DNA from: Cupriavidus pauculus
Lineage (GTDB): Bacteria; Pseudomonadota; Gammaproteobacteria; Burkholderiales; Burkholderiaceae
NCBI RefSeq assembly: GCF_003854935.1
Contig: NZ_CP033969.1
Coordinates: 1,798,001-1,862,000, forward strand
Direction: 5' to 3'
Length of the DNA stretch: 64,000 nucleotides
The position numbers and the translations under genes are program-made. Shown here piece by piece: positions 37,327 to 64,000 of the stretch. The notes under the pieces are model-generated. The model did not search any database, was not told the origin of the DNA, and worked only from the letters and a program-made list of their open reading frames with translations. The number at the start of each line of letters is the position of its first letter. Positions within the stretch are counted from its first letter, which is position 1.

Positions 37327-37827
37327 CTACTCTTCCCCCGACGCCGGCCGTTCGTACGTCACGAACGCGTAGTCGAAGCCGTTGGCGGCCGAATGGTGCG
37401 TCTCCCGCGCGACCTCGTTCCATCGGGACCGGTCGACGGCCGGGAAGAAGGCGTCGCCTTCGATGTCGGCATCGATCTCGGTGACGATAAGGCGGTCCGC
37501 GCTCGGCAGCGCCTCGGCGTAGAGCTGGGCGCCGCCGATCAGGAAGACCTGCTCCACGCCCACGCACAGCCGTTGCGCGTCTTCCAGCGACGCCGCCACT
37601 TCGGCACCTTCCAGCTTCAGATCCCGGTTGCGGCTCACCACGATGTTGCGGCGGCCGGGCAGCGGGCGGCCAATCGAATCCCAGGTCTTGCGTCCCATGA
37701 TGATCGGCGCGCCCAGCGTGGTGCGCTTGAAATGCTGCAGGTCTTCCGGCAGGCGCCAGGGCAGCGCGTTGTCGCGGCCGATCACGCCGTTGCGGGCGCG
37801 GGCGACGATCAGCGTCAGCAGCGTCAT
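37327..37827 (-). CDS. folA: Dihydrofolate reductase
   Basis: 166 residues with canonical DHFR segments: [36 protein letters not shown] and [10 protein letters not shown]. Reduces dihydrofolate formed by ThyA. Its ATG overlaps the stop of the thyA remnant, the normal thyA-folA coupling. Because thyA is cut, folA now lies downstream of island DNA and must use a new or internal promoter. Confidence 0.96.
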
Positions 37828-38354
37828 ACGGCCACCGGGGCCTTGATGGCCGGGTGCGATTCGTAGCCGACCAGCTCGAAATCCTCGTACCGGTAATCGA
37901 AGATGCTGTCAGGCTTGCGGCGAATGTGCAGCGTCGGCAACTTCATCGGCGCGCGCGCCAGTTGCGTCCGCACCTGCTCGAAGTGGTTGCTATAGATATG
38001 GCAGTCGCCGCCGGTCCAGACGAAGTCGCCCACGCCCAGGTCGCATTGCTGCGCGATCATGTGCGTCAGCAGCGCGTAGCTGGCGATGTTGAACGGCACG
38101 CCCAGGAAGATGTCGGCGCTGCGCTGGTAGAGCTGGCAGCTCAGCTTGCCGTCGGCCACGTAGAACTGGAAGAACGCGTGGCAGGGCGGCAGCTTCATCT
38201 GCGGGATCTCGCCCACGTTCCAGGCCGAGACGATCAGCCGGCGCGAGTCCGGGTTGCTGCGGATCTGCTGCACCACCTCGCTGATCTGGTCGATGTGCCG
38301 GCCGTCCGGGGTCGGCCACGCGCGCCACTGGTAGCCGTAGATCGGCCCGAGGTC
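37824..38354 (-). pseudogene. thyA: Host thymidylate synthase, 5' part removed by island
   Basis: The frame encodes the C-terminal 176 residues of a ThyA very like the E. coli protein, from [14 protein letters not shown] to [10 protein letters not shown], matching E. coli residues 89-264. The catalytic Cys ([11 protein letters not shown]) is kept, but the N-terminal 88 residues with the phosphate-binding Arg and the folate-contact Trp are missing. Upstream of the Asp codon (38352-38354) the sequence changes to unrelated, AT-richer DNA. An in-frame ATG at 38408 within the island end gives a 194-residue fused reading frame, not a working synthase. Confidence 0.92.
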
Positions 38355-38416
38355 ACTTTGCCGGCCACCGGACTGTCTATTACGTTGTGTTTTCGCCCTT
38401 CGCATCAATTAATCCT

Positions 38417-38440
38417 TGAACAATTAAGTATTATTGTTCA
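38417..38440. repeat. Inverted repeat near island left end
   Basis: TGAACAAT and ATTGTTCA separated by eight bases form a perfect 8-bp inverted repeat 63 bases inside the island. It could be a recombinase or transposase site or an operator. Confidence 0.5.
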
Positions 38441-38511
38441 GTACATGTTGTCGTAAGGGATTTTACAGCGTTCGAGCCTTGCGGCGCAGTATCTAGTGTT
38501 GCCAACGAAGG

Positions 38512-38544
38512 GCTGTGGATAAGCTGTGGATAAGCTGTTGATTT
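38512..38544. repeat. Tandem DnaA-box repeat near island left end
   Basis: The 11-bp unit GCTGTGGATAA occurs twice in tandem and a third, degenerate unit (GCTGTTGAT) follows. Each full unit contains TGTGGATAA, the exact complement of the consensus DnaA box TTATCCACA (38514-38522 and 38525-38533). It lies in the 259-bp non-coding left end between the thyA break and the XRE gene, which otherwise shows nothing. Confidence 0.65.
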
Positions 38545-38613
38545 CCTGTGAATTACCTGGGGCGGCGTCCTCCCCCTTTGCTTCTGAACTATCGTCAGGC
38601 GTCCTCTGACGCT

Positions 38614-38970
38614 CTACTTTCCTGCCCGAGAGCGCTTCGGTTTCGGCCCTTTGAGGTTTTCGAGTGTCTCATCAAGCGTACGCTCGCGACCTTTCTCTAC
38701 CCGTAATGCTTCATCCAGGCGAGCCATTTTTGCGGCGCTCGCATCAATTTGCTCGATGAGTTCGCTGGCATTGATGTCCAGCGCCCTACACCAGTTGCAC
38801 AGTTCAACGGGGTCCAGGCGCCTTTGGCCTTTCTCGACTCTGCTTACGTACTGTTGGTGTTGACCGAGAAACTCGGCGAAGTCGATTTGCGAGAAGCCAG
38901 CACTCTGCCTTGCTTCCTTGAGCAGGGCACGCATAAGCGCGTACGTTTCTTCATATACGGGGTTTCTCAT
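38614..38970 (-). CDS. XRE-family transcriptional regulator
   Basis: 118 residues from the ATG at 38970 (MRNPVYEETY). A Cro/C1-type helix-turn-helix is clear: LLKEARQSAGFSQIDFAEFL then HQQYVSRVEKGQRRLDPVEL, with a coiled-coil-like C-terminal half rich in charged residues. It points outward to the left end of the island. The frame is open to 39279, but the upstream part includes a palindrome that fits an operator, so the shorter form is preferred. Probably an autoregulator of island genes. Confidence 0.85.
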   Translation of the reverse strand: MRNPVYEETYALMRALLKEARQSAGFSQIDFAEFLGQHQQYVSRVEKGQRRLDPVELCNWCRALDINASELIEQIDASAAKMARLDEALRVEKGRERTLDETLENLKGPKPKRSRAGK

Positions 38971-39019
38971 TGCCAGCGGGAAGCATGTGATGAACCCGCC
39001 AGCTTGCAGCCATTCGCAA

Positions 39020-39040
39020 AATACACAAAAATTGTGTATT
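39020..39040. promoter_or_regulatory. Palindromic operator upstream of XRE gene
   Basis: AATACACAA and TTGTGTATT, separated by AAA, make a perfect 9-bp inverted repeat of 21 bp, 50 bases before the XRE start. The 335-bp stretch 38971-39305 between the divergent genes holds no gene; this palindrome is its only clear signal and is the likely XRE binding site. Confidence 0.65.
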
Positions 39041-39305
39041 CTTAAATCGCCGAAATCGCAAGTTTCATGCACTTTCCCGCGCAGCGGGCTACGAATCCTC
39101 AATGTTTGCGAAGCGGTCCGAACTGACTCTCCTCGGTTGTAACCGGCAGCACAACGTCCTGTATCCGACCTCCTCATCTGCTTACCGGCAACAAAGTGCC
39201 CTTTGTTGCGAGTCGATTTCCTGGCACAGCGCCAACGCCCGTAGTTTCCATCCCGTCCATGCCCATTCTCCCGACCCACTCAGTCGGGCTGTTCGTTTCC
39301 TCCCC

Positions 39306-39644
39306 ATGAAGACCATAAACATCACCGAGGTGCCGGAGGACTTTCCTCGGCGCTCCATCCCTGCTGTCGTTTCGGGCGTTCAATCGAAGATTGGTGTTGT
39401 GCTGTCCGAAGGGAGGTACTTCGCAGGTGAAACACCGGAAAGCCGATACGAGCGTTGGGACATTTGCGAAGACCTGGCTCGCCAGTTGGCGCCTGTCGCA
39501 CAAAAGGACGGAGCTAAACATCCCGAGCATTCCATTGAGCAGACGCTTGCGCGTTTGCGCGTCTCCGTTTCCCAAAAGGGATGGGTCTCCGAGGCGGAAC
39601 TGGATTGGCTCATGAACAGAATCCGAGTAATTCTCGAGTGGTGA
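39306..39644 (+). CDS. Hypothetical protein
   Basis: 112 residues, not recognised. Starts MKTINITEVPEDFPRRSIPA and ends in a hydrophobic/aromatic segment AELDWLMNRIRVILEW. Mentions of conserved pattern: GRYFAGETPESRYERWDICE. It is the first of four plus-strand genes spaced by 11 and 16 bases and a 4-base overlap, probably one operon. Frame is open upstream to 39102 but the ATG at 39306 is the first that fits the spacing from a possible promoter region. Confidence 0.6.
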   Translation: MKTINITEVPEDFPRRSIPAVVSGVQSKIGVVLSEGRYFAGETPESRYERWDICEDLARQLAPVAQKDGAKHPEHSIEQTLARLRVSVSQKGWVSEAELDWLMNRIRVILEW

Positions 39645-39655
39645 CAGGACCCGGC

Positions 39656-40261
39656 ATGAGCGAACGAGATAAAAGCACCGTCGAGCGTCCGGGATACACA
39701 GGCGAGCTCATACGGTACGTCCCGATACCGGCGCTTCATTTGGGAAGCGTCGTCAGCGATATTCCGCCTGTGGTTCATGCAGTAGGTCGAGTTAAGGCGC
39801 GCCACCCAGTTGAACTGATTTACCACTGGGGTCGCTACGGCTTTCCTCGGTACGGCGTCGAAGACTTCGAAAACAGAGACTGCTGGACGTTTTCGAACGA
39901 CCTGCAGGAGGCCGCAGCCATCGGGTTCAAATGGCTCGAAAACAACTGCGCGTTGGAACAGATTCCCGAAGACCAGGATGGCGAAGTCACTTACGGGTAT
40001 GTCGCTCGCGGCGTCGTTGACGAGCCTGACCTTGAACACCTTCTTTACAGTGGTGACATATGGAAGGCCGCCGGCGCAGACATGGATGAAGTCGCGACGC
40101 CGGAAATCCTGACTCGCGTCCGCAATGAGCTTCTCAGGGTCTACGCATCGAGAGGCGGAGGCCCGTTCTTCCTGCTGGATTTTTCCGACCCGAAGAAGGT
40201 GAGTCAGTACCTGTCTGATTGGGCCAACGAGATTGACGACGAAAGGCTGTACGGCGAATGA
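39656..40261 (+). CDS. Hypothetical protein
   Basis: 201 residues from the ATG at 39656, not recognised. Soluble, no signal or membrane segment; aromatic-rich middle (YHWGRYGFPRYGVEDFENRD). It begins 11 bases after the previous gene and ends 16 before the phosphatase-like gene, so it is likely part of the same operon. Confidence 0.65.
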   Translation: MSERDKSTVERPGYTGELIRYVPIPALHLGSVVSDIPPVVHAVGRVKARHPVELIYHWGRYGFPRYGVEDFENRDCWTFSNDLQEAAAIGFKWLENNCALEQIPEDQDGEVTYGYVARGVVDEPDLEHLLYSGDIWKAAGADMDEVATPEILTRVRNELLRVYASRGGGPFFLLDFSDPKKVSQYLSDWANEIDDERLYGE

Positions 40262-40277
40262 GCCTGGTTGCCCCCAA

Positions 40278-40784
40278 ATGAAACAGTATCTGTCTGAGGT
40301 TGTCACCGCCCTATATCGCGCGCCGCGTGCTGGCCTGCGACGAGTATTTGCGCTTTCGCGAGAGGAGGCCGGGCGGCTTCCATCGCTGCCGACGTTCGCG
40401 ATTATCTCGATTACTGCGCCGGAGCGCCCGCCAGCTAATCTGAATTCTCCAGCCCATGTTTTGCGATTGAGCTTCGCCGACGTTGATTTCCACAGCGCAG
40501 ACCTGTCGCTTCGCGCGCAGGCAAAACTTCCGTACGCCTTTACGACGGAACAGGCAAACGAAGTGCGGGATTTTGTTGAATCGCTCACGGACGACGTGAA
40601 CGCGGTTGTGGTCCATTGCGAGGGCGGATTTTCGCGGTCCTGCGCAATCGCGTTGGCGCTTCATCGCCTCTACGGCTACGAGGCGGATATCGAACGGCTT
40701 ACCCAGGCCAACCCTTCGGTGCTTCGCCTAATGATGGAGCAATCTCAGAGTTCGAAGAAACGTAAGAATCGCCGTTCCAAATGA
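40278..40784 (+). CDS. Dual-specificity/tyrosine phosphatase-like protein
   Basis: 168 residues from the ATG at 40278. The signature VVVHCEGGFSRSCAIALAL carries the CX5R phosphatase loop (C114 to R120) followed by a Ser, as in cysteine-based protein phosphatases. The N-terminal half has no other recognisable motif and the general acid Asp is not certain. The C-terminus is Lys/Arg-rich. The stop overlaps the next gene by ATGA. Related proteins are common on mobile elements; the target is unknown. Confidence 0.75.
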   Translation: MKQYLSEVVTALYRAPRAGLRRVFALSREEAGRLPSLPTFAIISITAPERPPANLNSPAHVLRLSFADVDFHSADLSLRAQAKLPYAFTTEQANEVRDFVESLTDDVNAVVVHCEGGFSRSCAIALALHRLYGYEADIERLTQANPSVLRLMMEQSQSSKKRKNRRSK

Positions 40785-41143
40785 CGAGGTATTACACCCC
40801 AAAAGAGATGGAGGCCGTTCTCGGGGAGCACCTGCGGACTCACCGAATCCATCGAAACATCGACCAGGAAACGCTGGCTGAGCGTGCTGGCATCAGTGTG
40901 CGCGCATTACGGAATCTGGAGTCCGGGGGCGGTTCATCGACACATACTCTGTGTCGAGTCTTAAAAGCGCTGGGCCGCGAAGCCTGGCTAGACACGATTG
41001 CGCCGTATCCCACCATCAATCCGCTGATGCTGACCAGGCAAGCAAAACCTCGACAGAGGGCAAGCAAACCGAGGAAGCGCTTGAAAGATATGTTGGGCAA
41101 GATGCCAGACGTAGGCATCGATAAGGACTTCGGCAGCAGGTAA
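40781..41143 (+). CDS. HipB-like XRE DNA-binding protein
   Basis: 120 residues. Cro/C1-type HTH (HRNIDQETLAERAGISVRALRNLE) followed by STHTLCRVLKALGREAWLD, a pattern seen in HipB-type antitoxins, then a basic tail. No HipA kinase gene is adjacent; the gene before it is a phosphatase-like protein translationally coupled to it. It may regulate the four-gene cluster. Confidence 0.8.
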   Translation: MTRYYTPKEMEAVLGEHLRTHRIHRNIDQETLAERAGISVRALRNLESGGGSSTHTLCRVLKALGREAWLDTIAPYPTINPLMLTRQAKPRQRASKPRKRLKDMLGKMPDVGIDKDFGSR

Positions 41144-41251
41144 TGCAAGATTTGCGAGCGGGATGTGTGACAAACCCCCTCGTTGGTAGGGTGTGTCGGC
41201 TTGACTGCCCTCGTAGGTCAACTACCGACCTAAGGGGTCTTGCGCTCTGCG

Positions 41252-42802
41252 TCAGTCGTCAGTGAGGCTACTCGACTCTCTGATGGGGCCTTTCCCGGCA
41301 ATTCGCGCGAACCAGCGATTGCTGTCAGCGGGTCTGCAGGATAGCTGCACGGGAGAACCATACTTCAATATGGCTGGGCCCACCACTTCGACCATTGTTT
41401 CAAGGCACCCGACCTCGACGGTGTACATGCCACAGTCTAGTCCAAGCAAATGCAGGTGCATTTCGTGGGTGAGCCGCAGGTCCACAGGCCGACGAACCTG
41501 AATCTTTTCCATCAGCTCTTCAAACACAGCTGACTTGTCTGCTACCAATGTGAAGGTCATCTGCGGGTCTTCTGCCTCGGCAATGCAAACGAGCTGCAGC
41601 AACTCCTCAAGAGAGTCTATGTCTTCGAAGACGTCTTTGGGAGATGGCGGTATAACTAGATGGAGGACGAAGAACCTATCGAGCCTTCGAAGTATGTCTA
41701 TCTGCCCCAAGAATCTGCGATGAAGTTGAATCAGTGGCCCGCCAGGTAGCGTGCCGCCTCCGGAGAATATTTCCTCTCCGTCAACTTCAATCGAGATGCT
41801 TGCAGTAGCTTCATCCGCAATCAATCGAACGAGCTCGCGCAATCTATCAAAATAGGGCAGCTTCAGTACAGGCTTGCCTATCCACGCGTTTGGATTGATG
41901 TCGAGTTTCAGGGGCGCATGACGAGAGCCAACATCGCTACTGAGCGAAACTGTCGCGAGTTCCCCCAAAGTGCGCCCAGTGAACCGCATCCCCCTAGTTC
42001 CCCGGCTGGCATGGCCATGAAACTCAATAAGCGTGGTCCCTACGATTGCTGATGTCAGCCGTAGCGTCAGCAAGGCCTCACTGCGGCTTGTTGAAAGCTC
42101 AAGTTTTCGCATGGTTCCGGAGGAGTTGGCGAACAACGGGGAGCCTTCAATGTCGGCGACAATATTCTCGAACTGGATTGCACCGCCATAGTTTTGAAGT
42201 TCTTGGAGTCCCTGAGCGAAGCGTTCTCTATCTTCAGCACCGACAACAATCTGTGCGTCGACGTTCCGCCTCGCCCGGAGCTCATAGAGCGTCGCGCCAT
42301 TCAGATGTGCTACAGAAACCGCGAAACGAGGGTCTATCGCTTCTTGGCGGGCCGCTTCATTCTTGCAGAAAATCTCCACTGCACGCGAGATATCGGCATG
42401 TGACGAGGGCACTGGTAAGGCAATTGTCGGGGGTTTTCCTAGTCTGCCTCTCGCGACAGACTCTGCCCGCGACTTCAGCTCGATGAGTCGCTCTACAGGG
42501 TACGCACTGGCATCTGCGTCGATAATAGTGGAGCAGTTAGAGCATAGCCAAATGCCGTTCGCTACTGAGCTGCGGTCCTCCTTTGATTGATTCGGGTCAA
42601 ACCTTGGCCCACCCGGCGCCGCGGCTCTAATATGAGCAGCAACTCCGATGCCAACTGCTCCGTCGGATTGAGTCTCAGGTCCGGACGTCTGCGTGTCACA
42701 GATGGAGCAGTGGTAATTGACACGTCTCGCAAGAGTCTGCTTTTGCTTCGCAGCAAAATTGTGGCGAGTGGTTGTGCGCCTAGCAGGTCGGATGTCTGTC
42801 AT
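41252..42802 (-). CDS. HNH-type protein with large unknown C-terminal domain
   Basis: 516 residues. The first ~105 form an HNH-like zinc domain: C32-x2-C35, AAHI with H57, ANGIWLCSNC with N82, C87 and C90, as in proteins with the GVAAHIRAA.PGGPR pattern. The remaining ~400 residues are not recognised. This N-terminal module is often joined to different effector parts in defence-type genes, so a nucleic-acid-cutting role is plausible. Last of three minus-strand genes. Confidence 0.7.
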   Translation of the reverse strand: MTDIRPARRTTTRHNFAAKQKQTLARRVNYHCSICDTQTSGPETQSDGAVGIGVAAHIRAAAPGGPRFDPNQSKEDRSSVANGIWLCSNCSTIIDADASAYPVERLIELKSRAESVARGRLGKPPTIALPVPSSHADISRAVEIFCKNEAARQEAIDPRFAVSVAHLNGATLYELRARRNVDAQIVVGAEDRERFAQGLQELQNYGGAIQFENIVADIEGSPLFANSSGTMRKLELSTSRSEALLTLRLTSAIVGTTLIEFHGHASRGTRGMRFTGRTLGELATVSLSSDVGSRHAPLKLDINPNAWIGKPVLKLPYFDRLRELVRLIADEATASISIEVDGEEIFSGGGTLPGGPLIQLHRRFLGQIDILRRLDRFFVLHLVIPPSPKDVFEDIDSLEELLQLVCIAEAEDPQMTFTLVADKSAVFEELMEKIQVRRPVDLRLTHEMHLHLLGLDCGMYTVEVGCLETMVEVVGPAILKYGSPVQLSCRPADSNRWFARIAGKGPIRESSSLTDD

Positions 42803-42892
42803 GCTTTAGTGTATTGGCTCAGGCGGGCTCTTTAGCAACGTTCCACGCTGAGGCCACAAAGTCGGCAGTCAGCCGATTTCTGACGGGTTGAT

Positions 42893-43570
42893 TCAAAGCG
42901 TCAGCAATCCGTTTGAAGTCGAACCGGCACGAGGACTTGGTTGGACGAAATCTTTGAACAGCTCTTGGTGTGCGATGCGTTGCTGCTCCAGATAATTGGC
43001 ATGCCTTTCCAGCCTTTCCTTGAACGCATCGTGGACCCATCCGTAGTGATGAGATTCAAGGCTGGCAGGATTGACCCCAGCAGAGGCTCGCAGAGAGAGT
43101 GCAAGTTCCCACGCCTTTTGCCCATACTCAGCAGACTTGACTGCCTGCTTGCTGGCGACATCTGAGGGGTCGTCAGCATGTTCGGCGTGCTCCGAAATGT
43201 AGGATTTCACTCCTCGTACAGCCTCAACAAAGTCCTTTAGTCGTGCCGCTTCTTGTTTCGTGAGTGCTCTCCAGTTGAATGAATCCGGGGGCACGAATTC
43301 CGGAAATTGAACTGCATAGTAGGCGTCCCACGACTGGTCGTCCCACGCGACAGGCGGCGCAGCTCGTTCGGTGGAAATCGTGTCACCGCATGCCTTTACG
43401 AACCGCTCGAGCAGGACCGCTACCTCTAGAAGCACATGATGTCGCTCGTGCTGGCGATTCTTGTTCTCTCGTACGCTGGTTTGGAGCCAACTGATACCCG
43501 AGCTGACGGCAGCACCTATAACAGCGGAGGAGGCGACAATCTTGACGAAGTCAGTGGCGTCGAGGGGCAT
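42893..43570 (-). CDS. Membrane-anchored hypothetical protein
   Basis: 225 residues from the ATG at 43570. One N-terminal hydrophobic helix (FVKIVASSAVIGAAVSSGISW), then a charged, mainly helical cytoplasmic part with no known motif. The frame extends to 43786 but that part overlaps the nuclease gene. It sits between the PD-(D/E)XK gene (58 bases) and the HNH gene (90 bases) and may anchor a complex to the membrane. Confidence 0.65.
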   Translation of the reverse strand: MPLDATDFVKIVASSAVIGAAVSSGISWLQTSVRENKNRQHERHHVLLEVAVLLERFVKACGDTISTERAAPPVAWDDQSWDAYYAVQFPEFVPPDSFNWRALTKQEAARLKDFVEAVRGVKSYISEHAEHADDPSDVASKQAVKSAEYGQKAWELALSLRASAGVNPASLESHHYGWVHDAFKERLERHANYLEQQRIAHQELFKDFVQPSPRAGSTSNGLLTL

Positions 43571-43628
43571 AGTTGTAATTGATTCAAAACGCTGGGCGTG
43601 AATGTGGTCCTGGCTAACGGCCGGTGTG

Positions 43629-44723
43629 CTACGAAAGCTGGCTTTCAAGAAAAGCCTCGAGCGTGGTCCCATCGGCAAGAGCGTAGCGGCTTGGTGCAGT
43701 CTCGTATAAAACGTGGATTCCCTGGGAGCGCAAGAATGTGTTCGCGTGAACAGCATCGTCTTTGACCTCTCCTGGCAGAACGACACTCAATAGGGTGTCA
43801 TCGTCACCTCGCTTCCAACGATAGTGCAGCAGTTGCCCGAGCGCTTTGTACAGTTGGTCGCTAAGGGAGCCCGCGGTTTTGACCTCGAAGATGGCGCGAG
43901 CAATACCGTTGCTTCCAACGATAGCCGAATCGATATTCTTCGTGCTGCGCACGACGAAACGTCCCTTCGCCCACGCATCCAGGGCACTCGACAGACGATT
44001 GCACAGTGGGCCATGCTGAAATTCGTAAGAGACCGGCGCGCGAGCCTTAAGTGATTTCGTGCCCTCGAACTCAGCGTTATCGTGCCACGGCCATGAGTGT
44101 TCTGGGTGCTCAGTCTGCGCAGGAATCGAAATTGCATTATTTTCCGCATCCACGCCGCTTGGCTTCGCCTTAAAATAGTCTTTGAATGCAATAACACGAA
44201 GAACAAAATCCTCAATGTCTCCCACGAAAGTTGGGGAGTCCAGCGCGACGACGGGAATGACTTTACGTTCCTCTTGGTTGCCTGTCTGAACGGATACGGT
44301 GTGGTCCCCGAAGAATTCTAGGGTGTCCGCTTCTTTGATTCTTCCCCGGTACGCGTTGAACATCGCCCGTCTTCCGAGGACTACGCGCTCGTCTTCGATG
44401 GCAAACAGACCTCCAACGGCGCGACCACCCGTCATCGAGACGTTGACTTCGGCATTCGGAGAGAAGGCTGGCGTCGGTTCAGCGTGATGGTCGACCAAAC
44501 GGAAGAGGTGAGCGTACGAGTCGGTACGCATTTTGTTATCGTCGACGCCTACGTATATGTCGTGAGAATGAGCACGGAGCACAAACGTATCTAGTTGCTC
44601 GCGGCCTCCGTTCGGGAAGCCCCATACAACTTGCTGTTCGCGATAGGCGTGGGTGCGCAGTTTCTCACGCAGCTTATTGGTCGCGCCTTGTAGCTGATTA
44701 GCGTCTAGGATTTGGGTAAGCAT
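43629..44723 (-). CDS. PD-(D/E)XK nuclease-like protein
   Basis: 364 residues. The C-terminal third shows a restriction-type active site: D265 in NIDSAI, E280-x-K282 in IFEVKTAG, then QLYKALGQLLHY, the QxxxY-like helix seen in RecB/Mrr-type nucleases. The N-terminal 230 residues are not recognised. First of three minus-strand genes. Divergent from a pseudogene fragment that starts at its very beginning. Confidence 0.72.
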   Translation of the reverse strand: MLTQILDANQLQGATNKLREKLRTHAYREQQVVWGFPNGGREQLDTFVLRAHSHDIYVGVDDNKMRTDSYAHLFRLVDHHAEPTPAFSPNAEVNVSMTGGRAVGGLFAIEDERVVLGRRAMFNAYRGRIKEADTLEFFGDHTVSVQTGNQEERKVIPVVALDSPTFVGDIEDFVLRVIAFKDYFKAKPSGVDAENNAISIPAQTEHPEHSWPWHDNAEFEGTKSLKARAPVSYEFQHGPLCNRLSSALDAWAKGRFVVRSTKNIDSAIVGSNGIARAIFEVKTAGSLSDQLYKALGQLLHYRWKRGDDDTLLSVVLPGEVKDDAVHANTFLRSQGIHVLYETAPSRYALADGTTLEAFLESQLS

Positions 44724-44794
44724 TGGCGAAAGGTTCTGATTATTTAGTGAAGCGTAGCACCAAGCGGCTGTCAGCCGCTGCTACCTCGCCTTTG

Positions 44795-44983
44795 CTGGTG
44801 TTTGCCCCACTCAACTGGGACATGTCGCAAGGTGGCGAGGACCGGTCCATCACAATGACTCACGAAGACTTCGCGCTGCAGGTTAAAGAAGCGGAACTAC
44901 TATCTCAGCAGCATTGGATGCTGACAAAGAAGTATGGCGGGCACGCGTACACGGGGCACTGGCTTAACGAGTCCCCCTCCTAG
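44795..44983 (+). pseudogene. C-terminal fragment of a HEPN-like gene
   Basis: The frame encodes SPLLVFAPLNWDMSQ..EDRSITMTHEDF..QVKEAELLS....TKKYGGHAYTG, clearly related to the C-terminal half of the product at 52543-52854 (PLLVFVPLDWDMSPN, VTKYGEHLYPG). The N-terminal half is missing, and the frame can begin only at a TTG at 44723. It is therefore a broken copy, not a complete gene. Confidence 0.75.
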
Positions 44984-45127
44984 GGGGTAGGCTCCGCAGC
45001 GCAATATGCCGATGTAAACTGCGTTCGGGCGGCAATCAAGATATTAGTATCAATTACATCTGGTCTAAGTTACGTTGTGCCAGGGGCATAGGGTCGTCTG
45101 GCGCCGGTTAAGAGGTGGTGTTACCGA

Positions 45128-46102
45128 ATGCAAGATGAGCCTTTTCCGTCGGATTCCCGAGCGGACAGAATAAGTAGCATCGTCGATTCTCATGCTGTCG
45201 ATGTGCGCATCCGCCGCGTTGACTTCACGTCTACGGCTGTGCCCTGCGTAAACGCGCATTTCCTATATCCAGTCTTCAAAGGCCGCCAACCGACAATGGA
45301 AGCGCTGGCGAAGATGTTGGTTAAGGAGATTACGAAGTTCTGCGCTACGCGCGCGGACCGTCGTAAAGCCAGGCGCTTGGACCACGAAGCAGGAGACCTC
45401 GAGACAGGGGCGGTTGAAGACCTTGTTGCGAAGGCGCGGAGTCTGTTCATGGCGCCAGACGCGGATGCCCGGTCTGGCGAAGCAGGGGAGCTCCTCCTGT
45501 ATGCGCTTATCGAGCACTATCTCCGTGCCCCCTTGATTGTGTCGAAGATGCGGTTGAAGACCAGCGCCAATATGCCAGTCCACGGTGCAGACGGGCTTCA
45601 TGCAGGATGGTGCGAGAAGACAGATTCACTGATTCTCTATTTTGGAGAATCAAAGATGCACCAAACCTTCGCAAGTGCCATGCAAGATGCCGCGGAGTCC
45701 GTGGCGGCCCTTGTGACGAATAAGGATGGGCGCCTGGAGCGCGAGCTCGAGCTGGTGTCGAACTTCCACGACTTGGGGAACTTCCCCGAGGAAGGTATCG
45801 AATATCTGCTTCGCTTTCTCAATCCCTTCGAAACGGAGGAAGGCAATCGGCGAATTGACCGCTTCGCAATACTTGTAGGCTTCGATTATCACGCTTACGC
45901 GAAGGTTGCCAACGTGCCTCTAGCGGAGGTCGAAGAGACGTTCCTCCGCCACTACAAAGGGGCGATGAATCAGAAAATCGGTACGGCTCGAACCCATCTC
46001 AAGAGCAACGCGATTGAGCTCGAGAATGTGGATTTGTTCATCTTCCCAGTGCCGTCGGTGGAGCTGTTTCGAGACTGTTTTCAGGAGGCGATGAATGGCT
46101 GA
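45128..46102 (+). CDS. hamA: Hachiman defence protein HamA (DUF1837)
   Basis: 324 residues of the DUF1837 family, the effector nuclease of the Hachiman anti-phage system. The family block GADGLHAG (D155) followed by LILYFGESKMH supplies the nuclease residues E174-x-K176 known in HamA. The gene overlaps hamB by 8 bases, with the hamB ATG inside its end. In the known system HamA is held by HamB and is released to cut DNA when HamB meets damaged or phage DNA. Confidence 0.9.
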   Translation: MQDEPFPSDSRADRISSIVDSHAVDVRIRRVDFTSTAVPCVNAHFLYPVFKGRQPTMEALAKMLVKEITKFCATRADRRKARRLDHEAGDLETGAVEDLVAKARSLFMAPDADARSGEAGELLLYALIEHYLRAPLIVSKMRLKTSANMPVHGADGLHAGWCEKTDSLILYFGESKMHQTFASAMQDAAESVAALVTNKDGRLERELELVSNFHDLGNFPEEGIEYLLRFLNPFETEEGNRRIDRFAILVGFDYHAYAKVANVPLAEVEETFLRHYKGAMNQKIGTARTHLKSNAIELENVDLFIFPVPSVELFRDCFQEAMNG

Positions 46103-52854: not shown

Positions 52855-52912
52855 GGGACACCCGTTTCGCCGAGCGAACCCTGGCTGACCATCGCTGCAA
52901 ACCTATTGGAAA

Positions 52913-56600: not shown

Positions 56601-56731
56601 AGGTCGGGCAAGAAGAGCGCATTGGCGCGATCGTAGTGCGCCGCATCGCCTTCGGCATAAAGCCAACCATTGGCGGCCAGAGATTGGCAGATTTCTGCTT
56701 CGAAGTGGTGTTCCTGGTGCAGGTTGCTCAT
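53615..56731 (-). CDS. hsdR: Type I restriction enzyme R subunit HsdR
   Basis: 1038 residues. N-terminal PD-(D/E)XK nuclease (D143 in LDLVLFVNG; E157-L-K159 in TAELK), Walker A HSAGSGKT at 307-314, DEAH box IADEAHSSQ, motif III FTATPK and the second helicase half with QTLSRLNR. Cuts unmethylated DNA after translocation. Separated from hsdS by 180 bp that hold a gene remnant, so the operon is interrupted. Confidence 0.96.
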   Translation of the reverse strand: MSNLHQEHHFEAEICQSLAANGWLYAEGDAAHYDRANALFLPDLLAWIEGTQSDTWQRLTKTHGFALKERLAERVRKSLNERGTLDVLRRGVEMLGLKEPLSLVQFKPALAINPVILQHFAANRLRVVRQVRHSPNHPQDALDLVLFVNGIPVATAELKSDFTQCVQDAVDQYRFDRHPQPKGGQLEPLLGFPGGALVHFAVSQAEVMMTTRLAGPATHFLPFNRGNAGAAGNAPNPDGFATAYLWEEVWARESWLDILHRYLIGKRDDKKQLKGVIFPRYHQLDATRKLVADVLGKGPGQRYLIQHSAGSGKTNSIAWTAHFLADLHDAEHRKLFDSVLVVSDRTVLDAQLQEAIFDFERTTGVVATITNEHGSKSAQLGQALKDGKKIIVCTIQTFPFALQAVQELAATEGKRFAVIADEAHSSQTGESAAKLKQLLSAEEWAELQDGGEIDTEVVLAAQMEARTGTKGLTYVAFTATPKQKTLELFGRPSLDGMPQPFHVYSMRQAIEEGFILDVLKNYTTYKLAFKLAHDGQEYDEKEVERSAAMKGIMQWVRLHPYNITQKVQIVVEHYRENVQPLLEGKAKAMVVVGSRKEAVRWQKAIRAYIQKQNYPLGVLVAFSGEIDDPESYPAPVTESSKDLNPGLKGRDIRDAFAEPEYHLLLVANKFQTGFDQPLLCGMYVDKMLGGIQAVQTLSRLNRALPGKDTTYILDFVNDAGDILKAFKTYYETAELEATTDPHHVYDLRAKLDAAGYYDDFEVDRVAKVELDPKGTQAQLSTAIAPVADRLLKRYRAAQEDKAAAEAKQEDKAAQAAKNTLDALVLFKNDMGAFVRLYAFLSQIFDYGNTDIEKRFLVYKRLIPLLEFGRERDIVDLSKVVLTHHSLRNTGRQSLSLNQGEAPKLPPMDAVGSGAVQDKQRALLDEIIQKVNGLFEGDLTNDDQLVYVNGVLKGKLLENETLVQQAMSNSKEQFANSPDLKDALLHAIMDALDAHNTMSTQALGSERVREGLKEILLGPAQLYEALRATSANHHGAARI

Positions 56732-56785
56732 GGATGACCCGTATGCGTTCGATATTGTTCTTGGATGGGGCGGGCGGAGCGTCCT

Positions 56786-56911
56786 CTAGCCTTCCGAGTA
56801 ACTGCGCTCCATCAGTGGCTTGGCGCGCTCCAAGTCCGCCAGAGTATGCAGACTCACTTCGAGGTCACCCGTGCCCCAGTGACTGATTTGGCTGACATCA
56901 CGGACTGTCGC
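56786..56911 (-). pseudogene. C-terminal remnant of a DUF5655-family gene
   Basis: The minus-strand frame right after the hsdS stop reads VRDVSQISHWGTGDLEVSLH then TLADLERAKPLMERSYSEG and a TAG. This matches the C-terminal end of DUF5655 proteins (RDVTGLGRWGNGDVEVRL), which often occur in type I RM loci. Only 41 codons remain and there is no start, so it is the end of a deleted gene. Confidence 0.65.
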
Positions 56912-58252
56912 TCATGCGGCCAGCTCCTCTTGCTGCTGTGCCACTGCGCCACGCACGTCGATTTTGCCGGTAACCGCAGCAGCAATCAGAGCACTGCGGC
57001 GTTCTTTGAGTAGGTCGATGGCGCGGTTGGCTTCGGCCTTGAGGGCGTCGAATTTCAAGAGTTCGGAATCGACGAATTCTGATATTTGCTCTTGTTCCTC
57101 AATCGGCGGCTTAGCCACAACCATCTGGCTAAGGTGCGTTGGTCCAAAGTGCTGAATTGTTGCGCCAGCCTTAAGAAGCTCAATCTGAATAGAGAATTGG
57201 TTGGAAATTGCCAAATGCCGAATAAATCCTTTCCTCATTTCCCCCGGAATGCCTCGAAGCCTAATAAGACCAGTGTAAGGAATTGCACCAACTGTCTCAT
57301 TGCCCACTTCGCATACTGTACCCATGCTTGCACTCGCACTGATTAAGAGGTCGTCCTTCTCGAGGCGAAAGTGCTCCCACTTTTCAGCGACCCTCTCAGG
57401 GTCTAGATAATTACATCCCTCGAGACTTGCCCAATATTGTTGAACGCCGGAAACTCTCAGTAGCGGGACGCCCTCATCATGGAAATCGACTGCCAGGATT
57501 CCTGGGCCTTCCTGAAAGCTGATGCAGTAGCGAAGCGGCTTCACGTCCCAATGCGCCGGCACCTCACCCAGCCAGGCCACGCCAGAGTCCTTCATCGGCG
57601 CGTCTGGTTTGAGGCCACGGGTGACGGCGTGCGAGATGGTGGCCTGGCGCTTTTCTGCCAGCAGAGTCAGGAGCTTTTCCTGCTCAGCAACCAGCGCATC
57701 AATCTTGCCAGTCTCGTGGTCGAGGAAGGCGGCGATAGCTAATTGCTCTGCCATAGGGGGCAAGGCAATTTGGAGACCCTTAAAGTCCTCCCAGTACAGG
57801 CGAAGACGAAAGTCTGTAATTCCTCGCGAATACCTCTTTATTTCCGCAATAGCTGTCGGTGTTCGCAGGAGCATTTCGATGTGGGACGTCAGGGAGTCGC
57901 ACATTGGACGAGCGACGACATAGGCCGGACTCACCATGCCGTGTACGGTGACCGTGCCGAATCCGCCCTGCCATGCCCTCATCATGTTGTAGGTAAGGTC
58001 TCCCGGGGCTACAGCTTTGTATTTTGAGCGGTCATCACTCCTCGTAACCTTCCTTTCCATCTCTTTTTCGTCGAGCTCTCTATCTGAGACTCCTTCGTGA
58101 ATGGAAACGCTCAGGACAGGCAGGTCATCATTCCCAGGCTCGTTCACCTCACGGAAAATCGTGGCAAGACGGGCGCACACCCAATGCGCCGGCACCTCCC
58201 CTAACCACTCGACCCTGCTGTCCTTGTACTTCGGATATCTCGGCAAACTCAT
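56912..58252 (-). CDS. hsdS: Type I restriction specificity subunit HsdS
   Basis: 446 residues with two target-recognition domains and conserved linkers, each unit beginning with a W-L-G-E-V-P-A-H-W element ([11 protein letters not shown] near the start and [11 protein letters not shown] near residue 225). It sets the bipartite DNA target. Start overlaps the hsdM stop by ATGA. Confidence 0.95.
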
Positions 58253-60090
58253 TCGGCTAACTCCTCGAGCATCTTCATGATGTTGGCCGACACCGCTTTA
58301 AGCTCCTCATCAATCTCGTGCAGGCCGCGCGGCGGTTCGAACACATAAAAATGCCGGTTGAATGGGATTTCATAGCCGACCTTGCTCTTATCCTCATCAA
58401 TCCATGCATCCGGCGCATGCGGAAGCACCTCACGTTTGAAGTAGGCTTCGATGTCCTCCGAGAGCGGTACATTCTCGGTGTCACGCAGCGCGCTGTCAGC
58501 CTGCGGTTTGCCCTTCTGCTTGCCTTTGGCGCCGAGTACCACCTGGCCCTGCTCGTCGCGCAACGGGCGCTCCACGGTAATCGTCGCGTAGCCGAACTCC
58601 TCGTTCTTGAAGATGCGAGAGATAGGCGTCAGCTTTACTTTGCCACCGGCAGGCGCATCAGGCACGCTTGCGGTGGCGGCCACTACGTAGCGGCCGACTT
58701 CCTTGCCCTCGGAGTCCAGCACTGTCGCCAGCTCCGCCTCAAGGAAATTGCCGAACAGCTGAGTCACCATATCGATATGGTCGTCGCTGAGTTCCTTGCG
58801 TTTGCTGCCGAGGCTCTTGCGCATCTTTTGCCAGAAACTTGAAGCGTCGATGAGCTGGACGTAGCCCTTGCGGTCATCCGGCTTCTTGTTCGACAGAATC
58901 CACACGTACGTGGAAATCCCCGTGTTGTAGAACATGTCGGTCGGCAAACCGACGATGGCCTCCACTAGGTCGTTCTCCAGCACGTAACGGCGAACTTCGC
59001 TCTCGCCGCTGCCGGCTCCGCCAGTGAACAGCGGGGAGCCATTCAGCACGATGCCGAAGCGGCTACCTCCCTCCCGGGCGGGGCGCATCTTCGACAACAG
59101 GTGCATCAGGAACAGCATCGAGCCGTCTGACACGCGTGGCAGCCCGGGCCCGAAGCGCCCGTCGAAGCCTTTCTGTTCATGCTCCTGGCGTACGGACTTC
59201 TCTACCTTCTTCCACTCGACGCCAAACGGAGGATTGGAGAGCATGTAGTCGAACTTGCGTCCGCCATGGCCGTCATCGGACAGCGTGTTGCCCGAGACAA
59301 TGTTCGCGACGTCCTGGCCCTTGATGAGCATGTCCGCTTTGCAGATAGCGTAGGACTCGTCGTTGAGCTCCTGGCCAAACATGGTCAAGCGGGCGGCCGG
59401 GTTGTGCTCCAGCAGGTATTCGCCTGCCACCGACAGCATGCCGCCCGTGCCCGCCGTGGGGTCATAGATGGTGCGCACCACGGCATTGCCGGGCGTCAGC
59501 ACATCGTCGTCCTCGATGAACAGCAGGTTGACCATCAACCGGATGACCTCGCGTGGGGTAAAGTGCTCCCCGGCAGTCTCGTTCGAGATTTCGGCAAACT
59601 TCCGAATCAGTTCCTCGAAGACCAGCCCCATCTGGGCGTTGTCCACGGTCGCCGGGTGTAGGTCGATGTTTGCGAATTTCTCGGTGACCAGGTAGAGGAG
59701 GTTGGCCTTGGCGAGCCGTTCGACCTGGGTGTAGAAGTCGAAGCGCTCGAAGATGTCGCGAGCCGCTGGCGAGAACCCTTGGACGTATGCGTAGAGGTTC
59801 TGACGGATGTGGTCTTGGTCGCCGAGCAGCTTGCCCAAGTCAAGTGGCGAGGTATTGTAAAACTTGGTGTCGCCGGCCAAACGCAGCAGAAAAGGCTCCG
59901 GGTTGAGGCCAGCCTTGGACTTGGATGCGAATTCCGCAAGCACCGCCGCCTTCGTGGGCTCCAGTACACAGTCCAGCCTGCGAAGGACTGTGAACGGCAG
60001 GATGACGCGACCATACTCGGATTGTTTGTAGTCGCCACGCAGCAGGTCAGCAACGGACCAGATGAATGAGGATAGGGCTTGGTGGTTCAT
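58249..60090 (-). CDS. hsdM: Type I restriction methyltransferase subunit HsdM
   Basis: 613 residues. N-terminal helical HsdM domain, SAM-binding motif [11 protein letters not shown] and catalytic NPPFG (N6-adenine type) in the order of gamma-class methylases. Partner of hsdS and hsdR. First gene of the operon, divergent from the gene at 60263. Confidence 0.96.
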
Positions 60091-60262
60091 TTACTCGGGG
60101 ACGTTGTCGGCCAATTGGTCAGCGGCGTTCTATAGCCCTGCGACCAAGGTGTCGCGGCCGATTTGTGGGGCGCGGATACGCTAAGGATTTTACCTTGCGG
60201 GCGGCGCAATCGGTTGGAGAGGGCCGAAGGCCCGGGTGGGAAGCTCATTACGGAATTGACGT

Positions 60263-61576
60263 ATGCACAAAGGAGACACCTTCGGTGGCAATCAGTCCCA
60301 GGGCGGAAGCCTCGAGTCGCCCTCAGGCGTTGTCAGTCGCGAATCGCTATACGAACTTGTCTGGTCTGAACCGATGCTAAAAGTGGCCGCCCGGTTCGAG
60401 GTCTCGTCCAGCTATATGGCCAGGGTATGTACATTGCTCAATGTTCCCCGTCCCGAGCGTGGATATTGGGCGAAGTTGGCCGTTGGAAAGTCGCGCCCGA
60501 AGCCTAGTCTTCCCGACGCTCGTCCTGGGGATGAGCTTGTGTGGGCTCGGGGTGACGCTCAGTGGGGAACTAGGCGCCTACTCCCAGAGCCACCCTCAGA
60601 CGGACCCAGCCGGCGGGCCAAGCGCATCAAACGGACAAACACCGAGCACGCCCTAGTGCCCGGGGCCAAGGCACTATTCGAAGAAGGCCGGGTAGCTTAC
60701 GGCGTTGGGTACCTCAAGCCAAGAAAGAGGTTGCTTGTTGACATACTCGCCACCAAGACAGGCCTTGATAAGGCTCTCTCGTTCGCAAATGAGTTGTTCC
60801 TCACCTTGGAAGAAGGTGGCTATCGCGTTGTCATCGCACCTCATGGAGAGCATCTCACGCGAAGTGATTTCGATGAGCGCGAAGTACCTCGGAAGGGTAA
60901 TAGCTACCGTGACAGATGGTCACCTGGTCGCTGCACGGTTGTCTACATCGGTACGGTTGCCATCGGACTAACGATTTTTGAGATGTCAGAAGAGGCGGAA
61001 GTGAGGTACGTCAACGGTGAATACGTGCGACTCAGTGAGTACGTTCCTCCGAAGCGGCGACGTTACGTTTCTGACCAAGGATGGACCAGCAAACAAGATT
61101 TTCCAACCGGCCGCCTTTGCTTGCAGGCTTACTCTCCATACTGGCGTGCGGAGTGGAATCGGCAGTGGCGGGAGAAACCGGGCCGTGACATCACGGGTCT
61201 CATTCCAGTCATTGTGAAGGAACTGAGACAGTAGGCTCCCGAAGTCGCTAGGTTAGCTGCGGAGGGCGAGCGGCAAGCTGAACTTGAACATCAGCGCTGG
61301 GAAGCCCAGCGCGAGCAATGGCGCCGAGAGGAAGCGGAGAAGCGAGCGGCGAAGGCATTGAAGGACAGTACGGAGGAGCTCCTTCAAATCACTGACGGCT
61401 GGGCTCAGTCGAGGCGATTGGCCGACTTCTTCTCCGATGCCGAACGTGGATTGAAAGACTTGGGCACCGATGAACAAAACAAGATGCGTGAACGCCTAAG
61501 ACGAGCTCGGGAGCTAGTTGGCAGCGTCGATGCACTAGAGCGCTTTCGCTCGTGGAAGGCACCGGAGGAGCGCTAG
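60263..61576 (+). pseudogene. Amber-interrupted gene of unknown function
   Basis: One frame runs 60263-61576 apart from a single TAG at 61232-61234. The first part (323 residues) has SRESLYELVWSEPMLKVAAR and PRPERGYWAKLAVGKSRPK, a pattern of unassigned proteins seen on mobile elements; the part after the stop continues in the same frame for 113 codons with a coiled-coil (RQAELEHQRWEAQREQWRRE) and ends in a natural stop. It reads like one ~437-residue protein broken by an amber codon, or read through if a suppressor exists. Confidence 0.7.
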
Positions 61577-61663
61577 TAATGGACCTCCCACGAACCTGCT
61601 GGCGTGCACCACAGTGCCTGCCGGCCCTTTCACCCTATGTGGACACGGCTCGCGCTGCGCTGC

Positions 61664-62059
61664 ATGCGGATGGCTACCTCGGCTTCAGGTAGAGCTGTTT
61701 TTGGGACTGACTTGGTGGCCGATGGCGTCGGCGCGGTTGCTGACGTCGTATCCGAGAATCCCGGCACCACTGCCGCTGTCGTGTTGGGCGCCGTGGCCAC
61801 GGGAGGTGCGGCCCTGGCCTTCACTCCGGCTATCGGTGCCGCAGCTAGCGCTGCAGGCCTCTGCGTAGCAGGCGGAACGCTCTCCGGTGCAGCCGTTAGT
61901 TCGGCCGGTCTCGCAGCCCTGGGCGGCGGCAGTCTCGCAGCGGGCGGCATGGGGATGGCCGGCGGTACTGCGGTTGTGACGGCAGCTGGCGCAGTCGCTG
62001 GTGCGGGCGTATCCGGCGGCGCAGCTGTCGCAGCGAATACGCTTTCCGAGCAGGCTTAA
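61664..62059 (+). CDS. Gly/Ala-rich small hydrophobic protein
   Basis: 131 residues from an ATG at 61664 (another at 61670). Very rich in Gly, Ala and Val with glycine-zipper-like runs (AAVVLGAVATGGAALAF, GGGSLAAGGMGMAGG), able to insert in membranes. Composition could suggest a pore-forming or bacteriocin-like peptide, but nothing proves this. The codon use fits a real gene poorly enough that it may be a chance frame. Confidence 0.45.
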   Translation: MRMATSASGRAVFGTDLVADGVGAVADVVSENPGTTAAVVLGAVATGGAALAFTPAIGAAASAAGLCVAGGTLSGAAVSSAGLAALGGGSLAAGGMGMAGGTAVVTAAGAVAGAGVSGGAAVAANTLSEQA

Positions 62060-62080
62060 CACCAAGGGCGCGAACTGCGA

Positions 62081-62305
62081 CTAGACGTCGCGGTTCGCCT
62101 CACATATAGCGGCCGTGGACTCAGAAGGGATTGCGACGACTTCGCCGCAGGCGTCGCACACCGCTACGAGGATGTTCTCGGCAACACGTTTTCTGCTGTC
62201 ACCGACGGAGACATCCCTGCGAACGAAGGTCGTGCCGACGACCTTTCCGCAATCCGGGCAGATAGCTTTGCTCCTATCGCCCTCGTGAATTCGTGCAATG
62301 CTCAT
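62081..62305 (-). CDS. Small zinc-ribbon protein
   Basis: 74 residues from the ATG at 62305. Two Cys pairs (ICPDCGK and VCDACGE) 35 residues apart form a likely zinc ribbon, with basic residues between. Similar to YgiT-like and other zinc-ribbon antitoxin-type N-termini, but no HTH follows. Stop of the upstream gene is 17 bases away, so they are likely one operon. Confidence 0.6.
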   Translation of the reverse strand: MSIARIHEGDRSKAICPDCGKVVGTTFVRRDVSVGDSRKRVAENILVAVCDACGEVVAIPSESTAAICEANRDV

Positions 62306-62322
62306 TGCTCGGTCCAAACCTT

Positions 62323-62772
62323 CTATCGGCGGCGGGCCAAGAAGGAGAGCCAATCCGATGCATATGCGCACTGCATCGGCTCGGAATCCTCCTCGATAAC
62401 TGGACACGTCGAATACTCGATGTGCTTGCGGAAGTAGGTCACTGCCGGCTCGAGGATTTCCCCGAGACGAACGTAGCTGGTGTCTCCCGACAGATGAATG
62501 GGAACACGCAGGGCCAGAGGTCGTGGTGGCAGCTCTTCTGTTCCGGTCAATCCTACTGCTAGCGCACGAGCTACCAAGTCGAAGACGGACGATGCATAGC
62601 GAGGGTAGCCATGCAGCGCCCGCTTCTCGCCATCGCCAAACGGGGGCTCGTTAAGTTGCACGGCGTAGTCAGCCACAGCGCTACGCTCGAGCCTGCCAAT
62701 GTACGCCGTCGCTATCTGCCTTCCCGGGCCATTGCGTCCTGGCCCGACGACTTCCACGGTGACTTTTAGCAT
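62323..62772 (-). CDS. Hypothetical protein
   Basis: 149 residues from the ATG at 62772. No known motif; segments RQIATAYIGRLERSAVADYA and GDGEKRALHGYPRYASSVFD, C-terminal region with EEDSEPMQCAY. Located before the zinc-ribbon gene on the same strand; the two may act together. The frame is open to 63078, but that part overlaps the divergent HAD gene. Confidence 0.6.
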   Translation of the reverse strand: MLKVTVEVVGPGRNGPGRQIATAYIGRLERSAVADYAVQLNEPPFGDGEKRALHGYPRYASSVFDLVARALAVGLTGTEELPPRPLALRVPIHLSGDTSYVRLGEILEPAVTYFRKHIEYSTCPVIEEDSEPMQCAYASDWLSFLARRR

Positions 62773-63023
62773 GATTGATTTCGCGAGAGCGGGACGCAAT
62801 GTGTATGGCGATTTTAGCGCCACACGGGAGTGTGGCTCGGCTGCCAGTGTGCAAAAAATGTAGTGTATCAACGCAATCGGCGGAATCTTGCCGGTCGTTG
62901 TCGAGTCGCTCCGAAATCGTGGTTCGAGATTTGCAGATGCTGGTCGCGGTGAAGATAATTGCGCAATCAGCACTACGAGGAAACATCGATGGGCCGGGCG
63001 AATTGCAAGCAACGCGTCAGCGG

Positions 63024-63575
63024 ATGAATGAGATGAGCATAGAGGATTCATCGGTGGCGGCGGACCCACCCGGAGCACCGCTGCACGTGCTCTATGTCGA
63101 CTACGATGGCGTCTTGCATCCTGACTCGGTTTACCGCACGCGCAACGGAATCGAACTCCTGCACCGGCCAGGGCATACGTTGTTCGAAAACGTGCCGCTC
63201 ATGGAGGCCGCACTAGAGCCGTATCCCAATGTCAGTATTGTCCTATCGACATCTTGGCTGCTTATTAAGGGTAACTACGAACACGCCAAATCGAGGCTGT
63301 CTGGGTGCCTGCAGAAGCGATGCATTGGCGGAACGTTTCACCGACGCGAAATGCGAAAGACCTGGTTTGAGAGCATCCCACGGCCTGACCAAGTCATACG
63401 AGATGTACAAAGACGACAGCCCGCGCGGTGGGTGGCGGTAGACGACTGCCCGGAAGAGTGGCCCACTTGGGTGCGAGACAAGGTCGTGCGCGCCGACCCT
63501 GAACGTGGCATCGCCGCCAGCGAGATGCTAGAAGACTTGGAGGCGAAGCTGCTGCGCGAGTTTGGAGGGTTGTAG
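63024..63575 (+). CDS. HAD-like phosphatase-domain protein
   Basis: 183 residues from the ATG at 63024 (another at 63033). Motif I VLYVDYDGVLHPDS with the DxD nucleophile pair, motif II IVLSTSWLL, motif IV-like WVAVDDCPEEW. Small HAD domains of this kind are annotated in DNA/RNA repair and mobile-element proteins; the substrate is unknown. Confidence 0.75.
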   Translation: MNEMSIEDSSVAADPPGAPLHVLYVDYDGVLHPDSVYRTRNGIELLHRPGHTLFENVPLMEAALEPYPNVSIVLSTSWLLIKGNYEHAKSRLSGCLQKRCIGGTFHRREMRKTWFESIPRPDQVIRDVQRRQPARWVAVDDCPEEWPTWVRDKVVRADPERGIAASEMLEDLEAKLLREFGGL

Positions 63576-63660
63576 GGAGCTATTTCGGTTGGCGACGGTG
63601 CTCTGCTGTTGAGATACAAAATTGACCAAGCCAACTTGAGCTTCTCCAGCTGAGTTCGAA

Positions 63661-63689
63661 CGTTGATGGAGGCGTCTGCTCCATCAACG
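63661..63689. terminator. Hairpin downstream of island thyA
   Basis: A perfect 11-bp stem CGTTGATGGAG/CTCCATCAACG with a seven-base loop lies 8 bases after the stop of the island thyA. It lacks a T run, so it may be a weak or Rho-assisted terminator. Confidence 0.5.
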
Positions 63690-63697
63690 TCTCCTGC

Positions 63698-64000
63698 TCA
63701 CACAGCCATCGGAGCGGTTAAAGAAGCATGGTGCCTATAGCCCTCTAGCATGAAATCTGTTGGCTCGACACGCTCCAACCATTCCGGCTCATACTTGCCA
63801 GTGGCAGCAAAGTCAGGGATTCGGTCAGAGAGGACCAATTGGGGCGCAGGGAATGGCTTACGGCTCAACTGCTCTCTAAGCATTTCCACATGATTTTCGT
63901 AGATATGCGCATCACCGATGAAGTACGTGAACCAGCGTGGCGTATAGCCAGTTAGCCGACCCACAAGATGCAGGAGCGCAGCACCTTCAGTGAGATTGAA
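63698..64000 (-). CDS. thyA: Island-borne thymidylate synthase (Pseudomonas-type), C-terminal part
   Basis: The last 100 residues of a Thy[22 protein letters not shown] to the normal end [17 protein letters not shown], with the dUMP-site FNLTEG and the folate/dUMP-contact [13 protein letters not shown]. It is the longer ThyA type of Pseudomonas and relatives, unlike the E. coli-type host remnant at 37824. The gene continues past 64000. Being complete at its 3' end and carried by the island, it should replace the function lost in the host thyA. Confidence 0.93.

Follow-up and report, generated by a model that had tools for sequence, protein, structure and literature searches.

A GInt-like island that splits thyA in Cupriavidus pauculus carries a complete, diverged thyA, and the arrangement recurs in other genomes

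The DNA analysed here, which we call the window, is a stretch of 64,000 nucleotides from the 6.18 Mb, four-contig genome of Cupriavidus pauculus (GCF_003854935.1, contig NZ_CP033969.1, here C2:1798001-1862000), and it contains part of a genomic island that interrupts the thymidylate synthase gene thyA. Searching the whole genome with the PF00303 profile, we observed three pieces, all on the minus strand: two parts of a host-type thyA and, between them, one full-length match. A first-pass annotation had placed an island at 37824..64000, with host thyA broken at 38354 and a second thyA of a different type across the cargo. The break and the second gene are borne out and the island is real, but its far end lies at about 70207, not 64000. 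The features, in window numbering continued past its end, are as follows.

37824..38360, minus strand: host thyA 3' part (PF00303 positions 87-266 at C2:1835827-1836360, window 37827-38360)
38355..38480, no strand: distal island end, with a GC content of 0.42 over the last 126 bp and one copy of GTTCAGTAC at window 38436
38361..64000, no strand: island cargo region within the window; the island continues to about 70207
63698-64678 (63698..64000 inside the window), minus strand: substitute thyA, whole gene, 326 aa
C2:1861701-1862675 (window 63701-64675), minus strand: PF00303 match of the complete substitute thyA, full profile
64725-65237, minus strand: ginD-like gene, 170 aa
65234-67108, minus strand: ginC-like gene, 624 aa
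67105-69231, minus strand: ginB-like gene, 708 aa, start uncertain
68957-70099, minus strand: ginA-like gene, 380 aa
About 70207-70482, beyond the window (C2:1868207-1868482), minus strand: host thyA 5' part (PF00303 positions 1-93)

The cut, at about 38354, falls within the codons of the conserved ThyA motif E-L-G-P-[IV]-Y-G, and the two host parts lie on the same contig with 31.8 kb between them. Where a sibling (L055) has GGCGAACTCGGGCC, the window's genome has GGCGAACTTTTTCC on one side of the break and AAAGTGACCTCGGGCC on the other. When the flanks are joined in silico, thyA reads through as an open frame of 264 codons. Exact excision should thus repair the host gene, and thymidylate synthase would be lost only if the island left inexactly. 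Compared with 11 siblings, the joined gene has a ratio of non-synonymous to synonymous divergence (dN/dS) of 0.07-0.10 in nine cases and of 0.145 and 0.258 in the remaining two, all inside the range of 0.008-0.31 for the 12 sibling pairs printed; this comparison with the 11 siblings gave no sign of decay in the two thyA parts, and because the joined gene falls within the sibling range the insertion looks young. Related strains mostly keep an intact thyA: of 60 genomes sampled from this genus, 57 show a single full-length PF00303 match, and the others are the window's genome (split plus complete), G262 (two overlapping pieces) and G786 (54% complete, no match). The same profile found no intact host thyA elsewhere in the window's genome, and PF02511, the ThyX profile, matched none of the 11 genomes searched, the window's among them. 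Given one complete PF00303 match and no PF02511 match, the island's ThyA is the sole complete thymidylate synthase revealed by these two family searches.

The protein encoded by the substitute gene matches NF010393 at 626 bits (cut-off 576) and is complete. Of the 68 residues that do not vary among 26 host ThyAs it keeps 66, and its gene differs from the restored host site at eight of 24 bases. Thus the idea that the second gene is complete and takes over the function of the first stands as regards completeness, and the retained residues and the lack of a ThyX match are consistent with the rest of it: the substitute is predicted to be a working enzyme.

The island measures about 31.85 kb, with a GC content of 0.555 against 0.687 in the left flank. 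Integrase genes had been anticipated past 64000, and a tyrosine-recombinase operon indeed occupies 64725-70099. Its four frames are all open and it directly adjoins the host thyA 5' part, so that three tyrosine-recombinase-like genes and a small fourth gene stand at one island end. The Pfam profile Phage_integrase matches the first three proteins, above its curated cut-off only for the first; the 708-aa ginB-like frame probably starts later, because its relatives align from about residue 90. The terminal 9-mer GTTCAGTAC has three copies in the island, one near one end and two, inverted, near the other, and is absent from the 37.8-kb left flank; we read it as a putative recombinase site.

This layout is shared with the GInts of Bardaji et al. 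(2017, PMC5385486). In their description, too, one end holds three tyrosine-recombinase-like genes with a small fourth one, the cargo starts immediately behind ginD, the distal end is richer in AT and target specificity is high; GInts are further characterised by excision as a circle, for which all four genes are needed. There appear to be differences as well. GInts are described as flanked by direct imperfect repeats of at least 10 nt, whereas at our two junctions the only repeat to be seen is a 6-bp imperfect core (GAACTT / GACCTC). Their GinC is reported to lack the first catalytic arginine or the RHRY set; here, judged by eye from alignments, it is the second operon protein that has Asn at the place of Arg-I, while the third keeps the Arg and has its nearest tyrosine off the usual spacing. 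Since these catalytic residues do not seem to fall as published, and the GInt proteins are known here by description alone, we call the island GInt-like, by its layout. According to the same source GInt insertion probably does not completely inactivate the target genes, whereas in our case the break runs through conserved codons and a cargo gene stands in for the target; the main text of that paper does not mention thyA.

We observed the same combination of split thyA, gin-like operon and complete thyA in other genomes. A GinA-like protein (E up to 1e-20) was detected in four of 399 genomes of the family, the window's genome included. Two of the other three carry a distant operon (26-31% identity) that is preceded by a thyA remnant on the ginA side and followed directly, on the ginD side, by thyA; in the third, G255, the operon has no thyA beside it. 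A GinB-like profile detected seven of 398 genomes of the phylum, again including the window's, and all six others show the pattern. Scanning genome contigs with a GinB-like alignment gave 18 loci, 14 of which have a thyA part and/or a complete thyA with the operon (two of the 14 are the halves of a single genome); the remaining four are a short contig with gin genes only (L037), two loci without thyA (L030, L041) and a Herbaspirillum locus with the 5' part only (L029). The same scan with a single GinA-like protein found nothing. In total, 25 genomes have a split thyA with a related operon, and a complete thyA is seen in each: G000, G787, G062, G288, the genome of L043, G603, G633, G761, G737, G729, G630, G788-G796, G798, G1224, G1226, G1236 and G1285. 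Genomes with identical match coordinates were counted once (G1202/G791, G1214/G792, G1219/G788), and loci L040, L042 and L045 were taken as G062, G288 and G633. The complete thyA is the sole full-length PF00303 match in all 20 genomes whose matches are fully listed; for G1224, G1226, G1236 and G1285 it is among the matches listed, one or two of three not being listed, and for L043 the locus only was seen, with ginABCD, a complete thyA and a 3' remnant. Both host thyA parts lie on one contig in 11 of the 25.

A GinC-like alignment run against 369 genomes of the class gave only the window's genome convincingly, four of the five rows being partial (E 3.5e-6 to 4.6e-4), and so these genomes supplied no independent control GInts. 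No relative was found among viral contigs, and a phage collection yielded a single, partial match (E 2e-8). In a plasmid collection the GinA query found one record and the GinB query six, of which five are partial and weak (Cupriavidus, 28%). One plasmid, pZXPA-20-602k of Pseudomonas putida, is a possible vehicle for ginABCD-thyA.

Insertions into thyA were seen at four places, all of them within, or adjacent to, codons for conserved motifs of ThyA, and both orientations occur. The first, E-L-G-P-[IV]-Y-G, is used in the window's genome, where it was read in the DNA, and by residue position in Herbaspirillum G787, whose gin proteins are 43-53% identical. The second, R-S-x-D-x-x-L-G-x-P-[FY]-N, is used by the Pseudomonas elements whose junctions were read and, by profile position, in G729 and G737. 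D-A-H-I-Y-E-N is the third (G062, G288, L043 and, by profile position as its junction is not readable, G603), and P-C-M-H, next to the catalytic cysteine, the fourth (G630). The operon is co-oriented with thyA at the first two places and opposite to it at the other two.

The substitutes themselves were compared as a set of 24, that is, 23 from interrupted genomes and one from the plasmid, with G796 and G798 left out for contig breaks. All keep 61 to 67 of the 68 host-invariant residues, and C146, R126, R127, R166, D169, N177, H207 and Y209, which we take to be the catalytic residues of ThyA, are present in every one. For seven of nine substitute pairs dS could be estimated, and in these seven dN/dS is 0.02-0.11. 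The gene follows ginD closely: in 22 of 24 elements the gap is -4 to 46 nt, the upper value being that of the window's island. In a phylogenetic tree, 23 of the 24 substitutes form one group with six single-copy Pseudomonas host ThyAs, at modest support (80/80). The window's substitute falls outside this group, beside the host ThyA of G255 (100/99), which is why its acquisition by the window's element appears to have been an independent event. Between P. poae and Pseudomonas sp. MF4836 the thyA genes are close (dS 0.125) and ginB is saturated; thyA and gin modules thus seem to be exchanged. We dropped the rule that substitute and host gene always belong to different ThyA types: the window obeys it, but other elements sit in hosts with a thyA 75-79% identical to substitute-type ThyA.

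From these observations we hypothesize, and consider it very probable, that a GInt-like island breaks thyA and supplies a ThyA of its own, and that the cell thereby comes to depend on the island. The gin-like operon would insert the island by site-specific recombination at a short site within highly conserved thyA codons, and the insertion would break the host gene. Lying directly behind the recombination operon, the substitute thyA could be expressed at once, and the diverged enzyme would then supply thymidylate synthase; its sequence differs from that of the target site. Unless exact excision restored the host thyA, the cell would from then on need the element. The first-pass annotation had already proposed an island that keeps itself in place. 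The open joined gene agrees with this to the extent that only inexact loss would leave the cell without the enzyme, and the hold of the island on its host is predicted on the same grounds. The recurrence of the arrangement, at different sites, in both orientations and with at least two separately acquired ThyA types, would fit the same course of events, with nadE as a second target.

Coincidence is one competing account: an ordinary GInt entered thyA in a cell that already held another thyA by chance, and target and cargo are unconnected. GInt cargo is indeed described as variable (PMC5385486), and the separate acquisition of the window's substitute from the other 23 in the tree would suit such an account. 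The pairing of target and substitute, however, recurs at four places in thyA, and coincidence is made unlikely by that recurrence; the gap behind ginD is below 50 nt in the 22 elements noted above. The genus of P. poae (G633) bears on this as well. Among its 149 genomes, 11 have a GinB-like gene, and eight of these carry at least three PF00303 matches, the other three carrying one. Among the 138 without a GinB-like gene, 136 have one match, G1274 has two and only G1280 has three. The extra matches of G1280 are local partial repeats of the 3' end of its own thyA, downstream of the gene (L141:2129-3950). We regard coincidence as improbable.

In two of the three genomes of this genus that have a GinB-like gene and an intact thyA (G1203 and G1232; loci L113, L115, L139 and L140), it is nadE that is split. 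The nadE 5' part stands before ginA. In G1203 the 3' part is found 41.4 kb off on the same contig, in G1232 on a different one, and at a distance of 250-290 bp from it lies a complete NadE of another type, 565 or 573 aa long. Both NadE substitutes match NF010588 (PRK13981), and both broken parts in G1203 best match NF001979 (PRK00768); the longer type presumably uses glutamine. In the eight remaining genomes of that search, NAD_synthase is matched over its full length. The nadE cases bear on a further explanation, in which thyA is carried mainly for antifolate tolerance or nucleotide supply, and the way targets are chosen leads to thyA as a by-product. In its favour, thymidylate synthase is found among phage protein families (PHROG 160), and the plasmid copy of thyA has no broken thyA beside it. 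Against this, the nadE-splitting relatives carry a complete copy of an unrelated enzyme that again matches the target, and published tmk islands carry a thymidylate-kinase substitute (PMC10653934). We consider this explanation slightly less probable even than coincidence.

The closest printed precedent for the substitution we propose is the tmk island of Pseudomonas putida KT2440, with dNMPK (PP_1964), reported by Wirth et al. (2023, PMC10653934). It too splits an essential gene of nucleotide metabolism and brings a different enzyme near recombinase genes; stand-alone substitutes are reported in other strains, and the function was shown by experiment. It differs from the window's island in its enzyme and in the layout of its module, the latter as seen in G1241, and the main text does not mention GInts. 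G1241 has a tmk remnant abutted by dNMPK and then four genes, two with Phage_integrase matches, and so resembles the published tmk islands. The region L171:165-8382 shows the tmk remnant, dNMPK and the four-gene recombinase module of different layout. dNMPK was found in ten genomes of the P. poae genus, with seven loci displayed (L162, L163, L165, L168, L169, L170 and L171); L162, L163, L165 and L168 were set aside for their short dNMPK type and, by eye, phage-like surroundings.

Strand-biased circularizing elements (SEs, PMC10214605) also have a four-gene recombination operon with a small last gene (intA-tfp-intB-srap in SE-6283/SE-6945) and few target sites. They are reported there as distinct from GInts in sequence and without homologues found in Betaproteobacteria, the text available does not mention thyA, and the comparison with the window's island is by description only. 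No thyA- or nadE-targeting GInt was recognised in the open-access literature, as judged mostly by titles and the beginnings of abstracts.

Several observations weigh against the dependence we propose, or against its generality. The substitute of Herbaspirillum G787 lies at the far end of a 40-kb island and not behind ginD. G255, G797 and G1251 have relatives of the operon and one intact thyA, with neither pattern, and plasmid pZXPA-20-602k carries ginABCD-thyA (L021:10019-16881) without a thyA remnant on the plasmid. Four thyA-linked proteins and one unlinked protein made up the search profile, which bears on the share of gin-like operons that use the strategy. Contig breaks hide the junctions of G798, where the operon probably belongs with thyA, and in G1232 no more than ginA and a portion of ginB was seen. 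In the window's genome the interval from the thyA 5' part to ginA holds a terminator-like hairpin (one found against 0.5 expected in shuffles), and no promoter-like site there passed a promoter scan. Finally, in G1226 ginD and thyA are 108 nt apart, and both ginC and ginD are disrupted. Such damage, together with stops inside the matched stretches of the thyA pieces of G787 and G630, would fit a decayed leftover, that is, an immobile island whose thyA is a xenologue that survived the death of the host gene. In the window's genome, however, none of the four gin-like frames is interrupted, and the dN/dS of the rejoined host gene is in the sibling range, so that the insertion looks young. Of the explanations that we weighed, decay is the least probable.

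The six single-copy host ThyAs that group with the substitutes are 277 aa long and sit at an lgt-thyA locus (L172-L177), and we recognised no gin-like gene in the 8-kb stretches around them. They may be assimilated substitutes; the reverse direction, with substitutes taken from such hosts, is possible. The locus of P. helleri (L032:5944-15187) has a native-type thyA part (residues 1-195), then a 277-type part (1-193), then ginABCD and a complete thyA, and reads as two rounds of interruption, an apparent serial replacement.

The usual view is that mobile elements keep away from essential genes or else restore the gene ends. The related elements described here appear to disrupt an essential gene and provide its replacement, and this for two enzymes at least. 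We lean, by a small degree only, towards the broader view that this lineage of elements evolved the substitution of essential genes, and that a decaying element leaves its substitute behind as a new host gene, open to new hits. If so, landing in the most conserved catalytic codons would give a broad host range, a diverged enzyme, usually encoded by the fifth gene of the recombination operon, would make the element needed, and mobile elements would drive the serial replacement of core enzymes (thyA, nadE, tmk). This would be a testable route to the xenologous replacement of core genes, and it may explain scattered odd ThyA types. It also suggests a mechanism of addiction without a toxin, by which an island may be very hard to lose. 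For genomes with a split thyA or nadE some caution is in order, as the sole complete enzyme may be kept on the island.

The cargo includes the following genes.

45128..48662, plus strand: HamA-HamB (Hachiman) anti-phage pair
50430..51707, minus strand: HEPN/RES-domain protein
53615..60090, minus strand: type I restriction-modification genes (HsdR-like 53615-56731, HsdS 56912-58252, HsdM 58249-60090)

With the Hachiman pair, the type I restriction-modification genes and the HEPN/RES-domain protein, the element is also a defence island. Weaker matches in the defence cargo at window 41252-60090 are to a CBASS-like effector and to candidate defence models. Far to the left of the island, the window holds a nos (nitrous oxide reductase) cluster at 5628-12624, which matches Cupriavidus replicons at 78-79%.

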